From an uncultured Actinomycetes bacterium (GTDB lineage Bacteria; Actinomycetota; Acidimicrobiia; Acidimicrobiales; RAAP-2), in assembly GCA_903825305.1 (NCBI GenBank), contig CAIKAC010000017.1:1-64000 (forward strand): DNA of 64,000 bases, written 5' to 3'. Shown piece after piece: positions 21,977 through 45,103 of this stretch (its first letter is position 1; each line of letters opens with the position of its first letter). Position numbers and translations under genes: made by a program. The notes under the pieces are model-generated. The model searched no databases. It had not been told where the DNA came from and worked only from the letters and a program-made list of their open reading frames with translations.

Positions 21977-23227
21977 GTGGCCTGGCGGTCGCTGAGACCT
22001 TTTGGGTCTCGAAATTTCGTCTTGATCTGGACGTCTGCACTTATTTCCAACATCGGAACATGGATGCAGACGGTGGCGCTTGGAACCTTGGTTGTGCTCC
22101 ACACTCACAACGTATTTGTTACGGCACTTACCATGGCTGCAGCATTCGTTCCCTTAGGAATCTTTGCTCCCTTAGGCGGAGTCTTGGCTGACCGCATGGA
22201 TCGCCGGCGCTTGCTGATTACTACGACGATTGGCGAAGCGTTATCTGCACTTGGCTTAACACTGATGGTCGGACTCCACCATGACCCGGTGTGGGCCCTG
22301 ATGGTGGTGGTGTTTTGCGGTTCCAGTATTGGGGCGCTGGGCTTTCCCGCCTATCAGTCGATCATTCCCGAAATTGTGGCTAAGGAAGATCTTTTGGCCG
22401 CAGTTTCTCTGTCTTCGGCACAGTGGAACATGGGTCGCGTTGTCGGGCCAGCGATCGCGGGCATTGTCTTGGTGACCTGGTCCGCTGCTGGGGCCTTTGC
22501 TGTCAACGCAATCTCCTTTATTGCCGTGGTGGTGGCATTGCTCTTTGTCAAGATTCCCGTCCGAGCGGCAACCCAAGACGCCAAGAGCGTTCGCGAACGT
22601 TTTGCAGAAGGAATAGCTTCCGCAAGAAAACATCGCGCTTGTCGCAACGCAATCATCTTGATCAGCGTGGTGGCACTGATTGGTTCTCCGTTTATTGGAT
22701 TGGTGGCCGCCGAAGCCGTAGAAGGCTTGCATCGAAAGGCGGGAGGCCCGGCGGTGCTCACTACCGCTCAGGGCATCGGAGCGGTCATTGGTGCGCTCAT
22801 TTTGGCTCCCCTGGCCCATCGAATTGGACACAAGCGACTATTGCCCCTTGCCTTGGGTGCATTTTGTGTCGCCTTGGCCGCCTATGGAGCGGCACCCACG
22901 CTCTCGCTGGCAGCGATCGCCATCATGGCGGTGGGAGTTACCTACATCGGCATTCTTTCGGGCCTCAATACGGTGGTGCAGATCCATGCACCCCAAGCTG
23001 AGCGAGGTCGAATCTTGAGCATCTACATGACCTGCCTTGGCGTGATTTATCCCATAGGTCTCGTTATCGAAGGTGCGATTGGTCAAGTCATTGGTGTCCG
23101 CCTCGTCATGGTGCTCGCTGCGGCCCTTCTTGCTCTTGTGCTCATTGGTATGCGGGTGCTGAGCCCACGGCTCTTTCATGACTTGGCTGGACAAGAGGGA
23201 AATTCTAAGGACCAAACGGCGGCTTGA
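21977..23227 (+). CDS. MFS transporter (EntS/MFS_3 type)
   Basis: A 416-residue major facilitator with 12 predicted spans. The start FGSRNFVLIWTSALISNIGTWMQ and the loop ADRMDRRRLLI are typical of the MFS_3 group, which includes the enterobactin exporter and macrolide efflux proteins. The substrate is unknown. The start is a GTG at 21977, two bases after the SDR-DUF2867 stop, which argues for translational coupling and for export of something that protein makes or modifies. Confidence 0.9.
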   Translation: MAWRSLRPFGSRNFVLIWTSALISNIGTWMQTVALGTLVVLHTHNVFVTALTMAAAFVPLGIFAPLGGVLADRMDRRRLLITTTIGEALSALGLTLMVGLHHDPVWALMVVVFCGSSIGALGFPAYQSIIPEIVAKEDLLAAVSLSSAQWNMGRVVGPAIAGIVLVTWSAAGAFAVNAISFIAVVVALLFVKIPVRAATQDAKSVRERFAEGIASARKHRACRNAIILISVVALIGSPFIGLVAAEAVEGLHRKAGGPAVLTTAQGIGAVIGALILAPLAHRIGHKRLLPLALGAFCVALAAYGAAPTLSLAAIAIMAVGVTYIGILSGLNTVVQIHAPQAERGRILSIYMTCLGVIYPIGLVIEGAIGQVIGVRLVMVLAAALLALVLIGMRVLSPRLFHDLAGQEGNSKDQTAA

Positions 23228-34329: not shown

Positions 34330-34473
34330 AGGGAACTCACAGGAACGAAAAGGAACGTAGTCACGCTGTGAATCTACCCATCAATGACCAACTTGTGACG
34401 GAGGGGCCAAGAAGGGACCTTGTGCCCTATCGGAACGTGACAGCATCGCCGATAGTGGCGACAGGAGGTTTCC

Positions 34474-34647
34474 ATGCTTGCTGTTGTCACTGCACTGGCT
34501 TCGGTGTTCAATCTCGATACGCAGGGTCACTATCTGCACCTTGGGTTCATTGAGATTTCCATTGCCAATCTCATCGTCATCGTGTTGATGGTGGTGGTGT
34601 TCATTCTGGCCATCACGCTTCCGTTTCACCGCAGGAGGAATCGCTAA
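34474..34647 (+). CDS. 57-residue single-span membrane protein, first gene of the cytochrome b-like module
   Basis: A short gene that length filters would miss. From ATG 34474, with AGGAGG at 34463-34468, it encodes 57 residues: an amphipathic N-terminus containing GHYLHLGFIEIS, one strong hydrophobic span at about 31-49, and a basic end (FHRRRNR) that fits a cytoplasmic C-terminus. Its TAA shares its last A with the ATG of the cytochrome b-like gene (TAATG at 34645-34649), so translation is coupled. I infer a small accessory subunit, by analogy with the small subunits of b6f complexes. No homology can be claimed. Confidence 0.75.
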   Translation: MLAVVTALASVFNLDTQGHYLHLGFIEISIANLIVIVLMVVVFILAITLPFHRRRNR

Positions 34648-35297
34648 TGAGCACCCTTGATGCCAGTGAAACCCAAGCTGAAATAGATCAGCAGTGGACC
34701 ACGCGATCACGCCGTGCTCTTGCCAAGACCTTCCCCTATGAAAAACTGTTGCCCGACACGCAGCCGAGTTACTTGGCATCGTGGATCTACGTCTTTGGCG
34801 CCCTGACCATTGGGGCGCTGACCATGATCATCTTGTCCGGTGCGATTCTGAGCATTGAGGGCCCAACGTGGTGGCACACATCTTCCGTCGGGCTCTTCGT
34901 GAATTCCATCCACTTATGGTCGGTTGAGTTGTTCTTTTTCTTCATGGTGATTCACCTCTGGGGTAAATACTTCATGGGTGCATGGAGGGGTAAGCGAGCG
35001 ATGACCTGGATGTCGGGGGCCATCACCTTTGCTATCTCGATAGCGGCAGGCTTCACCGGTTACGTATCGCAGACCAACTTTGATTCCCAGTGGATTGCGA
35101 CTCAAGCCAAAGATGGCATCAACTCAACAGGGGCCGGAGCTTTCTTCAACGTCTTGAACTTCGGTCAGATGTTGATGTGGCACATCGTGCTCCTTCCTGC
35201 GGCGGTGATCGTCTTGGTCGGGATTCATATCCTCATGGTTCGCCGTCGGGGCATTGTGCCTCCCTACGCAGATGACTCCAAGGAGGTGGCGTCATGA
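34647..35297 (+). CDS. Cytochrome b6-like protein (cytochrome b N-terminal domain)
   Basis: A 216-residue four-helix membrane protein. Helices fall at about 45-70, 85-112, 118-141 and 175-198. Two histidine pairs are placed as heme b ligands: His89/His103 (13 residues between) and His179/His194 (14 between), the spacing of cytochrome b6. After helix C the canonical GYxLPW motif is replaced by GYVSQTNFDSQW, so the quinol-site cd region is altered. No Rieske protein or cytochrome c gene is nearby. It is translationally coupled on both sides. Two b hemes are likely; quinol oxidation as in bc complexes is doubtful. Confidence 0.88.
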   Translation: MSTLDASETQAEIDQQWTTRSRRALAKTFPYEKLLPDTQPSYLASWIYVFGALTIGALTMIILSGAILSIEGPTWWHTSSVGLFVNSIHLWSVELFFFFMVIHLWGKYFMGAWRGKRAMTWMSGAITFAISIAAGFTGYVSQTNFDSQWIATQAKDGINSTGAGAFFNVLNFGQMLMWHIVLLPAAVIVLVGIHILMVRRRGIVPPYADDSKEVAS

Positions 35298-36247
35298 ACA
35301 CCACCCGTCGCTTCAATCCAGATCGAGACGTTGAGGAATGGACAGGCGCAACGAGGCCCTATGACTTACTCAAAGAGGTCACCGTGTGCTTCCTTGTTGT
35401 CGCACTCTTGGCAATTGGTCTTGCCATTCTCTTTAGTTCGCCCAATGATCAAGCCATCTCGTTGCGCACGTGGGCTAACGCCAATCCCGTAGATTTTGCC
35501 CAGACTGCCATTACCGAACTAGATGGAACAAGTGCTTCGGCAACCTACGGGCCTCCTTATAACAACACCCCTGGGGTGAGCCAAAAGCTTGGCCCCATAT
35601 CCTTGGCCGAGCTGATGGGGATTAACGAGTACGTGAACCCACCAACAGATTTCGTCCTCCGCCCCTTGGAGACGGTGCGAGGAGACGCACAATTGACTGC
35701 GGCATTGACGCAGTTCAACGCTGCCGGCACTGCTCAACAAGCCTCATGGGAGCATGCCTACGAACAAGCGGTGTCCCATGCCACGTACATACAGGGCTCG
35801 GTCTCTGTGCCTTCAGGCCCCTATGGGCCGGTGGGTTCCATGGTGGCCTCATTGACGCAGATGGCGCAAAGTGGGGCGCTCGATACGTCAATGCTCAATG
35901 AAGCAAGTTTCTTTGGCACTGACTACACCCGCTCGTTGTTGTTTTTGTCAGATGGCGGGTATCTCAGTGCCAAGGCAGATGCCCAGCACCTGAGTGGCGA
36001 CCAGTGGGGCATGATGAATGAAGTCGGCAACTATCCGGGTCAGGCTTGGTTGTGGCTGTACACCATGTGGTATCAGGTCAAGCCGTTTTCTACCTCACCG
36101 AATGCCGATGTGCAGGTGTGGGCGCTCATGATGGTGTTGACCGTGGCCTTGATTTTGGTGCCATTCATACCGGGGCTGCGATCCATCCCTCGCTGGTCAA
36201 AGGTTTATCGAATTATCTGGCGTGAGCACTATCGGTCGCAGTCGTAA
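35294..36247 (+). CDS. Subunit IV-like partner of the cytochrome b protein, with large E-F loop
   Basis: A 317-residue protein overlapping the previous gene by ATGA. The first span (about 28-48) ends in LFSSPN, like helix E of the cytochrome b C-terminal domain. About 195 mostly polar residues follow (50-245). Then come PGQAWLWLYTMWYQVKPF (248-265), occupying the place of the PEWY motif, and a last span (272-293) ending VPFIPGLRSIP. I read it as a divergent subunit IV with an extracytoplasmic insertion; PEWY itself is absent. No cofactor motif (CxxCH, or Rieske Cys/His boxes) is seen in the insertion. The assignment rests on order, topology and short motif resemblance. Confidence 0.6.
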   Translation: MNTTRRFNPDRDVEEWTGATRPYDLLKEVTVCFLVVALLAIGLAILFSSPNDQAISLRTWANANPVDFAQTAITELDGTSASATYGPPYNNTPGVSQKLGPISLAELMGINEYVNPPTDFVLRPLETVRGDAQLTAALTQFNAAGTAQQASWEHAYEQAVSHATYIQGSVSVPSGPYGPVGSMVASLTQMAQSGALDTSMLNEASFFGTDYTRSLLFLSDGGYLSAKADAQHLSGDQWGMMNEVGNYPGQAWLWLYTMWYQVKPFSTSPNADVQVWALMMVLTVALILVPFIPGLRSIPRWSKVYRIIWREHYRSQS

Positions 36248-43286: not shown

Positions 43287-43934
43287 ATGGGTTGGAGCAA
43301 GCCAGAAATGGTGAAACAAGAGGCATCACTTCGAGGGCGCGATGAACCCATGAACGTCAGCGGCGTGCATGCATCGCTCGGTACGCCACTCGTGGGGCCG
43401 TTCCCCGAAGGCTTGGAGACGGCGTATTTCGCACTTGGTTGTTTTTGGGGAGCGGAGCGTGCCTTCTTTGAACACGATGGCGTGTACGCAACGGCGGTTG
43501 GCTATCAAGGTGGCTTTACGCCCAATCCCACCTACGAAGAGGTGTGCACCGGTCGCACCGGCCACACTGAAGCCGTCATGGTGGTCTTTGACCCGAACAA
43601 GGTGACCTACGCCGAGTTGGTATCGCTCTTCTTCGAGCGCCACGACCCTACCCAGGGGTATCGCCAAGGAAATGATGTGGGAACGCAATATCGCTCCGCG
43701 ATCTATACGACGAGTGATGAGCAACTGCAGATCGCCCTGGCCGGAGCTCGCGCGTTCCAGTCACAGCTCGACGCCGCAGGACTCGGAACCATCACCACTG
43801 AAATTCGTCCTGCGGGCCCCTTTTTTTACGCCGAGGATGACCACCAGCAGTACTTGATCAAAGTGCCCCATGGCTACTGCGGTCTTGGGGGAACCGGGGT
43901 GAGTTGCCCCGTTGGCTTGTTCGCCACCGCCTAG
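43287..43934 (+). CDS. msrA: Peptide methionine sulfoxide reductase A
   Basis: A 215-residue MsrA that repairs methionine-S-sulfoxide. The catalytic Cys52 is in [13 protein letters not shown], and [26 protein letters not shown] is the substrate region. The C-terminal [14 protein letters not shown] provides recycling cysteines. The N-terminal extension ([17 protein letters not shown]) is usual in actinobacteria. Start ATG 43287 with GAGGTGGAG before it. Its TAG shares CTAG with the opposing nhaA stop. Confidence 0.96.
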
Positions 43935-45103
43935 CGGCGCCGGCCAGCCCAGATGAGCCAGACGCCGAGCACGAGCGCCAGCAGTGAGGCTGCAACCAAA
44001 CTGATCTGACTTGCCGCGTAGCCGCCTGAGCCAAGGCCAAAAATGCTTTCGGCGAAGATCAAGGGAACGGTAAAGCCAATGGCGCAGAGCATGGCAGCAC
44101 CCACGAGTTGCAGTTTGGGGAAATCACCCAATGCGGGAGCCTCGCCTAAGCGAGATGAGAGCGTCGCACCGCTGATAACACCCACTGGTTTCCCGATGAG
44201 GCGAGCGGCCAAAATAGCAACGAGGAGCACGGGCGCTCCTCGCCAGATGGAAGACGTGACGTTGACGCCAAGGGCGGCAAGGCTGAAGAGCGGAAGCACG
44301 ATCCATGTTGAAACGGGCACGATGGCTCGCTCGAAGTTTTCTGCCGCAGTCGTGCTTGCTCGATGCAGTGCCAACGCGGCGCCCGTGACAATGCCAGCAA
44401 GCGGTGGTTCAATCCCGAGGTGGGCAAATGACCACCACAAGATGAGCGTCGCCGCCATGATGAGCACGCGAGATCGAAAGCGCAGAGATGCACCGATCAC
44501 TACAACGCTGACGCCCAGTCCAATAACACCGGCGAGGAGCTGAGCGCTACTTGATGTGTGATGAGACACCAGCGCTAAAACGATCACCGTGGCGATGTCA
44601 TCGCAGATTGCGAGCGTGAGCAAGAAGGTGCGAAGGCCCGGCGCGCTGTGGCGCCTCACCAAGGTCAGAGCGCCCAGAGTGAAGGCAACATCCGTGGCCA
44701 TGGGAATACCCCATCCCTGGCGACTCTGCGCGTTGCCCCATGCGAGGCAGATGATTTCATAGACCAGCGCAGCCCCAGCCATACCGCCAAGGGCGCCAAC
44801 GAGCGGCGCCAAGGCTTGGGTGAGCTTCTGGAGCGTGCCGTGACGACGTTCACGGCCAATCTCAAGTCCAATAGTGAGAAAAAAGATCACCATCAGTCCG
44901 TTGGTGATGAGATCTCGAAGATTGGCAATTATCGGCAATGGAATACTTGGAATAGAGACGGACGCATTGCCGATTCGCGAGTAGCTCTGGGGAGCGAGTG
45001 ATGCCCATACGATGGCGCTCACGGCGGCGAGCCCCAGCATCCAGGTGCCGGCCATTTCGTGCTCGATGAGTGCCGCCAAACTTCTGCGTTGCGTGGAGCT
45101 CAT
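43931..45103 (-). CDS. nhaA: Na+/H+ antiporter NhaA
   Basis: A 390-residue, roughly 12-span antiporter that expels sodium in exchange for protons. Hallmarks are [16 protein letters not shown] near residue 75, [17 protein letters not shown], and the paired aspartates in [15 protein letters not shown] that bind the ion. Length is typical. It is divergent from the LapA-like gene, whose open region overlaps its 5' end slightly in non-coding frames. Confidence 0.95.

Follow-up and report, generated by a model that had tools for sequence, protein, structure and literature searches.

A three-gene diheme cytochrome b module encoded apart from Rieske genes in Actinomycetota, with a DevR-type promoter box

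The three-gene locus and its cytochrome b core

This study concerns a cytochrome b module of three genes, g1, g2 and g3, which is located in a 64,000-nucleotide (nt) stretch of contig CAIKAC010000017.1 from an uncultured Actinomycetes bacterium (the source genome). The whole stretch is referred to as the window, and positions are given in its numbering. The three open reading frames (ORFs) lie at 34474-36247, all on the plus strand, with intact frames, and are translationally coupled, g1 and g2 overlapping by TAATG and g2 and g3 by ATGA. The features of the locus, with protein lengths in amino acids (aa), are as follows.

34414..34427, plus strand: putative DevR/DosR/OsdR-type box GGGACCTTGTGCCC, differing at one position from GGGMC-N4-GKCCC and located 47-60 nt ahead of the g1 start
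34474..34647, plus strand: g1, 57-aa single-span protein, fused to g2 in some lineages
34647..35297, plus strand: g2, 216 aa, cytochrome b N-terminal (b6-type) domain with four helices A-D
34911..34913, plus strand: His89 in helix B, predicted heme b(p) ligand, invariant; heme assigned by alignment with b6
34953..34955, plus strand: His103 in helix B, predicted heme b(n) ligand, invariant
35181..35183, plus strand: His179 in helix D, predicted heme b(p) ligand, invariant
35226..35228, plus strand: His194 in helix D, predicted heme b(n) ligand, invariant
35294..36247, plus strand: g3, 317-aa partner with span E, an outer domain of ~200 residues and span F
35360..35434, plus strand: g3 residues 23-47, holding the YDxxKE motif and helix E, with K27/E28 aligned to the K/D found at the cytochrome b Qi site
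35435..36103, plus strand: g3 residues 48-270, helical domain replacing the ef loop; no known fold found
36122..36178, plus strand: g3 residues 277-295, span corresponding to helix F, from model and hydropathy

The g2 protein matched the Pfam families Cytochrom_B_N_2 (E 1.2e-15) and Cytochrome_B (E 1.5e-7), and in the PDB it matched cytochrome b6 structures (E 2.9e-10, or E 1.8e-14 with a profile). The best NCBIfam matches were NF002990 (cytochrome b6, E 1.4e-14) and NF040969 (ExtP, E 4.1e-14), both below the curated cut-offs (54.4 vs 325 bits and 52.9 vs 290 bits, respectively), and the 35.3 bits obtained with NF050120 (bc1_QcrB_actin) did not reach its cut-off of 500. A g2 profile also matched actinobacterial QcrB over helices A-D. 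The protein is 61-71% identical to 34 relatives, and His 89, 103, 179 and 194 are invariant in all 35 aligned rows; the same four residues were kept without exception in 109 rows (gaps set aside), where some relatives are only ~40% identical. Their spacing of 14 and 15 residues is presumably that of b6. By its sequence, g2 is a four-helix cytochrome b core with two histidine pairs predicted to hold hemes b.

A single membrane span was found in g1 by hydropathy, and its N-terminus is predicted to face outside by the positive-inside rule. Neither g1 nor g3 was assigned to a family at the curated cut-offs of Pfam and NCBIfam. On the minus strand upstream of the module are genes for an ABC ATPase and an ABC-2 permease, and an MFS gene follows downstream. 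Between window positions 22001 and 48000, the Rieske motif was absent from all six frames and CXXCH was absent among the called ORFs. The initial annotation of this DNA had read three genes with these two overlaps, a 57-residue single-span protein followed by a four-helix protein with both heme histidine pairs, an ABC exporter and an MFS transporter as neighbours, and no Rieske or c-type cytochrome gene close by, and each of these points was recovered here.

The g3 partner and its outer domain

Two hydropathy spans were identified in g3, at residues 29-47 and 277-295, and the ~230 residues between them are predicted to lie outside by the positive-inside rule. In front of the first span, all 109 rows agree at Y23, D24 and E28 wherever there is no gap, and at least 97% agree at K27. 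A profile of the fused proteins was aligned with a mixed cytochrome b profile at a probability of 98 and with five proteobacterial cytochromes b at 95, and both alignments continue past helix D into the first span of g3, placing (R/P)YDxxKE on the cytochrome b motif PYxxxKD. We take the aspartate aligned with E28 to be yeast Asp229. In a review, Asp229 at the yeast Qi site is described as hydrogen-bonded to the quinone (PMC9162462).

An AlphaFold2 model of the g2g3 fusion of Acidithrix ferrooxidans (predicted local distance difference test, pLDDT, 73; predicted template modelling score, pTM, 0.70) was compared with known structures by VIA-align. Residues ~30-520 of the model were placed on residues 3 to ~323 of cytochrome b with Z of 12.1-14.3 and a root-mean-square deviation (rmsd) of 4-7, where Z under ~13 may reflect merely a shared arrangement in helical folds; all 50 matches listed were cytochrome b of complex III. 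On this modelling, helices E and F most likely come from g3, which has no counterpart of the further C-terminal helices. No PF00032 match was found in 30 of 30 g3 members, a test that says little because the true QcrB of the same genome does not match PF00032 either. An identification of g3 as a C-terminal cytochrome b by sequence alone was rejected, as profiles of g3 alone gave no match.

Subunit IV of cytochrome b6f has three spans. Like that subunit, g3 is a separate gene after a b6-like gene, and its first span, together with the K/E motif, falls on helix E in the fused-profile alignment; it differs by a helical insert of ~200 residues, two spans and no PEWY. The description of g3 as subunit IV-like in the initial annotation is therefore only partly retained: the resemblance to helices E and F stands in the model and the fused profile, but g3 has no Pfam, NCBIfam or profile match of its own, lacks PEWY and carries an extra helical domain.

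In bc complexes, PEWY is located in the E-F loop, which is turned towards the Rieske protein. The pattern P-[ED]-W-[YFW], which covers the PEWY/PDWY of the Qo site, was found in 0 of 137 g3 copies, and the place of the loop is taken by the outer domain of ~200 residues. When modelled alone, this domain reached a pLDDT of 81 and a pTM of 0.75, with 10-residue pLDDT means of 93-97 over residues 71-150 and values below 50 at residues 190-202. It had no match in Pfam or NCBIfam, and no clear match in the PDB (Foldseek best E 1.7; one VIA-align row with Z 3.4; profile best E 0.69), a negative that does not by itself establish a new fold. The domain was also considered as c-type or Rieske, which was rejected, since CXXCH occurs in 0 of 137 copies and there is no conserved cysteine.

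Two stretches of g3 are conserved, ELxGTS..YGPPYN and QWGMMNETGxxPGQxWLWLYxxWYQ. The best-conserved regions, by mean top-residue frequency, were g3 237-265 (the QWGMMNE stretch, 0.91), the g2 CD loop (0.89) and helix B (0.88). Conservation peaking in these three regions suggests that the outer face holds a site for reaction or docking, which would lie next to heme b(p).

Linkage, genomic settings and the promoter box

The module was followed in several sets of sequences. The source genome and its relatives formed a set of 61 genomes, and 396 genomes were drawn separately across the phylum. A search of named genomes with two short peptide patterns gave at least 559 confirmed matches, of which the best 80 were analysed; the alignments A2-A5 are subsets of these 80 named loci. 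Together with 20 loci from relatives and the window they make up 101 loci, with a median of ~10 kb on each side, 57 of which hold at least 5 kb on both sides of the module. A quick maximum-likelihood tree was made from 109 g3 proteins, kept from 137 module copies after near-identical or flawed rows had been removed.

A g2 match accompanied g3 in all 80 of the best 80 named loci (one cut by a contig end) and a g1 match in 77, and in two of the three loci without g1 (L088 and L096) g2 is at or near a contig end. Natural fusions were also found: g1g2g3 in 8 and g1g2 in 4 of the first 30 loci (our own included), and g2g3 in 9 of the 80 named loci, among them a 535-aa protein in A. ferrooxidans. 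On the tree, the four fusion states need at least four changes, with a branch support of 99 for the g1g2g3 group (one side of the branch) and 75 for the g2g3 group, g1g2 needing two changes. The natural fusions and the constant linkage indicate that g1, g2 and g3 belong together, and by this sequence evidence they form one predicted membrane complex. One genome, G153, carries two copies of the module, with g1-like short ORFs upstream of both.

The g3 gene is present in 33 of the 61 genomes (the source genome included) and in 10 of the 396 drawn across the phylum. By their titles, 33 of the best 80 named loci belong to Acidimicrobiales or Acidimicrobiaceae, and most of the others are actinobacterial metagenome-assembled genomes (MAGs) with no finer label. 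These 80 also include A. ferrooxidans, two Streptomyces, one Kitasatospora, one Frankiaceae MAG and five MAGs labelled by their submitters as Acidobacteriota, Chloroflexota or Dormiibacterota.

The Rieske motif, searched in six frames, was found in only 2 of the 101 loci, on the opposite strand in both and 3.4 and 5.2 kb away. CXXCH occurred in four called ORFs across the 101 loci (only called ORFs being scanned), none of them cytochrome-like. As read from these sequences, the module has no Rieske protein encoded with the cytochrome b, no c-type subunit nearby and no PEWY/PDWY, features by which bc1, b6f and bcc complexes are recognised. The source genome has a separate qcrC-qcrA-qcrB row on another contig, encoding two cytochrome c domains, a QcrA_N plus Rieske protein and a cytochrome b. 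With module hits counted, every one of the 61 genomes gave a QcrB-family match, above the cut-off in 42 of them, and in some genomes the sole match is the module or a b6-like protein. From the separate qcrCAB and QcrB matches, the module would coexist with the normal complex and not replace it.

It had been suggested in the initial annotation to ask whether the three genes stay together and apart from Rieske genes, and the counts above answer both parts positively. Consistent Rieske or cytochrome c neighbours, or a full qcr set with the module as its decayed copy, had been named as grounds for giving up the idea; no such consistent neighbour was found, and a full qcrCAB does exist but the module is undecayed. 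The word orphan, used there for the module, holds as far as Rieske is concerned; in its regulation, the module seems to be part of a DevR-type regulon (see below).

As a separate observation, a Rieske-type gene, a cytochrome b ORF with CXXCH and a lipoprotein-like ORF with two CXXCH stand in a row at L210:8121-10807 of G153. This genome thus holds the row as well as its two module copies, and no COX1 match was obtained in it, by a search that was also blank in Corynebacterium glutamicum.

With cytochrome b6 and ExtP-type proteins (NF002990, NF040969), g2 shares the four-helix domain and its two histidine pairs; the module differs in that g2 scores far below their cut-offs and that g1 and the lid-bearing g3 are outside NCBIfam. 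With actinobacterial QcrB (NF050120), g2 shares the profile over helices A-D, and the fusion model overlaps over A-F, but the module lacks PDWY/PEWY and an adjoining Rieske or cytochrome c gene. The Streptomyces plasmids pFRL3 (L170:3953-5065) and pI (L174:2896-4023) likewise encode a cytochrome b N-terminal protein among hypothetical neighbours, with no annotated Rieske in the stretch shown; these proteins differ in their length of 370-375 aa and their adjoining heavy-metal P-type ATPases. A 176-aa protein without a Pfam match at E 1e-5 is encoded upstream of the cytochrome b on pFRL3, and g3 had no match in the plasmid collection. No description of such a module was found among the open-access papers searched.

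Two genomic settings recur. In the first, the module lies beside ctaA (26 of 101 loci, upstream on the same strand), ctaB (27), a TlpA-like gene (34) and CtaG (15). Directly upstream of the module, CtaB, CtaA and a TlpA-like thioredoxin protein are encoded at L056:6511-9013 and in other loci like it. A general link to heme-copper oxidase assembly via ctaA/ctaB was considered and set aside, being real in part of the family and not general. The second setting contains LuxR-type response regulators (18 of 101 loci), universal stress proteins (11) and a pyridoxamine-phosphate-oxidase-like protein (11), and in Kitasatospora and G146 pyruvate phosphate dikinase is also near the module. This setting resembles the OsdR/DevR dormancy regulon (PMC5069765).

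Among the other neighbours, MsrA-like genes were near the module in 9 of 101 loci, NhaA-like genes in 6 and MFS genes in 17, a recurrence that reflects local gene order kept among close relatives. In the window itself, MsrA-like and NhaA-like genes (named by resemblance) are at 43287-45103, downstream of the module. In Kitasatospora, an AIR-synthase-related protein is encoded ~2 kb downstream of the module (L090:12826-13866), which presumably resembles the hydrogenase maturation protein HypE.

The promoter box was counted in 104 distinct upstream regions from the 137 module copies (another count used 104 of 108 loci). Within 300 nt upstream, GGGMC-N4-GKCCC was exact in 22 of the 104 regions compared with 1.35 in random windows, and with at most one mismatch in 61 compared with 11.9 in random windows of the same loci. 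A stricter set consisted of the 76 of the 109 tree rows that had upstream DNA, kinship among promoters being handled only by this row removal; 14 of these had the exact box and 44 had it with at most one mismatch, and column-permuted motifs scored as high in 1/300 and 0/300 cases, respectively. Of 53 plus-strand box sites, 43 fall between -120 and -61. The two box halves also come out as the top de novo 7-mers (TAGGGCC in 19 regions vs 1.0). By these counts, the DevR-type box is enriched at the module promoter across the family.

The exact box was absent upstream of other genes in the same loci, namely CtaA (0/26), CtaB (0/27), TlpA-like (0/34) and MFS genes (0/23), and was found upstream of 1 of 13 universal stress genes and 1 of 12 pyridoxamine-oxidase-like genes. 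The sequence GGGACCTTCGGCCC, present in loci L050, L080 and L160, is the core of predicted OsdR sites before the nitrate reductase and universal stress protein genes of S. coelicolor, and the predicted sites of the OsdR/DevR dormancy regulon include AGGGACCTTCGGCCCC (both PMC5069765). In the source genome, an exact box GGGACCTTCGGCCC was also observed at L224:6766-6779 (contig C5), 36 nt upstream of a 499-aa ORF.

The source genome has a set of a pyridoxamine-phosphate-oxidase-like protein, a GAF kinase and a LuxR-type regulator. A close relative of this regulator (E 1e-45) was present in 29 of 33 module carriers vs 16 of 28 other genomes (Fisher p 0.009, kinship ignored), and within its own family in 28 of 31 carriers vs 3 of 6 others (p 0.04). 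From the box counts, the module seems to be a member of a DevR-type regulon.

A proposed electron route and its rivals

We propose that the three genes make one membrane complex, which would be a Rieske-independent relative of the complex III cytochrome b. In this complex, g3 would add helices E and F, and the E-F loop would have become a helical lid over the outer face. The hemes b(p) and b(n) could then wire an outer-face site, made of the conserved g2 CD loop and the g3 stretches ELxGTS/YGPPYN and QWGMMNE..WLWLYxxWYQ, to an inner-face menaquinone site near heme b(n) at K27/E28. As there is no Rieske protein to accept a second electron, a bifurcated Q cycle would not take place, and under low oxygen the complex could carry electrons through the membrane, with the menaquinone pool at one end of the route and an outer-face partner at the other. 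We lean towards export from an over-reduced menaquinol pool, with the opposite direction almost as probable.

We give a probability of roughly 0.5 to a diheme electron carrier that is independent of Rieske, linked to menaquinone and used under oxygen limitation. The heme core, the gene unit, the separation from Rieske genes and the promoter box are what the sequences themselves contain, and quinone use, direction and substrate are put forward as suggestions that would fit them. The initial annotation had already pictured a transmembrane diheme b carrier with a non-standard partner, a picture that agrees with the g2 heme core and with g3, kept apart from Rieske and c-type genes.

Several points weigh against this proposal. 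The box of the window is not significant alone (8 such sites in the window vs 12.3 expected), exact boxes are not in excess in the source genome (4 vs 6 for a reversed control), and the box was picked after the neighbours had been seen, though the de novo 7-mers recover it. Neighbouring LuxR-type regulators (0/19) and GAF kinases (0/5) had no box, even at one mismatch, and single exact boxes were found before an ABC ATPase (1/38), SerRS (1/32) and two other neighbours. For the structure, Foldseek alignments of the whole model were loose (best E 5.5e-5, TM ~0.3, rmsd mostly >20) and a profile comparison of g3 alone with 20 actinobacterial QcrB and five proteobacterial cytochromes b found nothing significant, so that helices E and F rest on VIA-align and the continued alignment. 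The lid has no conserved cysteine and a single nearly invariant histidine, H232 (67 of 68), and thus shows no sign of a cofactor beyond heme b(p); Met240/241, the other metal-type ligand candidates in g3, are not kept in G153. Of the 11 module genomes examined, 10 (the source genome and 9 of 10 further ones) encode a Rieske protein away from the module, and the sharing of a Rieske protein in trans is thus a possibility. The redox partner, substrate and quinone binding are proposals. The main uncertainty is the outer partner, which may be QcrA serving in trans, among other possibilities.

CybB is a diheme superoxide oxidase, and the module could be a comparable detoxification enzyme on a cytochrome b6 scaffold, in which a small oxidant or reductant, such as superoxide or nitric oxide (NO), reacts at the lid and heme b(p) and electrons are exchanged with menaquinone. 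The two-heme transmembrane core and the conserved polar and aromatic outer site would suit such a reaction, no protein partner is visible, and OsdR/DevR systems have been linked to hypoxia and oxidative stress (PMC5069765, PMC6302529). However, a direct link to such a substrate is lacking, and this explanation is considered unlikely, if the best placed among the rivals. The large conserved lid presumably also exceeds what CybB has.

A second explanation is that the module encodes an alternative cytochrome b which borrows the Rieske protein and cytochrome c of qcrCAB in trans and runs a normal Q cycle at low oxygen. The presence of QcrB-family matches in every one of the 61 genomes (above the cut-off in 42, counting module hits) and the hypoxia-type box are consistent with this, as is the Rieske match in 9 of the 10 further module genomes, the only one without being G003, a 91% complete assembly. 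In contrast, P-[ED]-W-Y is absent from all 137 g3 copies, what we take to be the Rieske-facing loop is replaced by a domain of ~200 residues, and in 99 of 101 loci the Rieske motif is not nearby, which makes borrowing doubtful, slightly more so than detoxification.

It is improbable that the module is a factor for the assembly or sensing of heme-copper oxidase and not a respiratory enzyme. This would account for the CtaA (26), CtaB (27), TlpA-like (34) and CtaG (15) neighbours among the 101 loci, but the ctaA/ctaB setting is missing from most loci, the exact box is absent upstream of CtaA and CtaB, and both heme sites are invariant. A weak further point is that no COX1 match was obtained in 4 of 10 module genomes (G153, G146, G003 and G032, of which G003 and G032 are incomplete), by a search whose C. 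glutamicum control was blank and which is not used as evidence on anaerobic hosts.

Finally, a decaying duplicate of the qcr genes, for which solely the existence of a full qcrCAB in the genome speaks, is ruled out for practical purposes by conservation: the 61-71% identity of g2 to 34 relatives, the four histidines kept without exception in 109 rows, the conserved g3 motifs, the intact frames and the natural fusions.

The usual view of complex III pairs its cytochrome b with the Rieske protein. In the module, the cytochrome b heme core recurs in hundreds of contigs, with another domain where the Rieske-facing loop should be and, in many lineages, with a hypoxia-type promoter box. For the proposed Rieske-independent carrier, the wider picture would be a widespread and undescribed class of cytochrome b in Actinomycetota, in which the quinol-oxidation loop has been swapped for a new fold, leaving a one-branch electron wire under the control of a dormancy regulator at oxygen exhaustion; taken as a whole, we put this picture at somewhat short of even odds. 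The module offers a natural setting in which to ask how a bc-type core works when electrons are not bifurcated, and since natural fusions such as that of A. ferrooxidans give single-chain constructs, it is directly testable. If the proposal is true, the module would add a component of respiration or redox balance to the low-oxygen OsdR/DevR programme of Streptomyces and mycobacteria, from whose current description it is absent.

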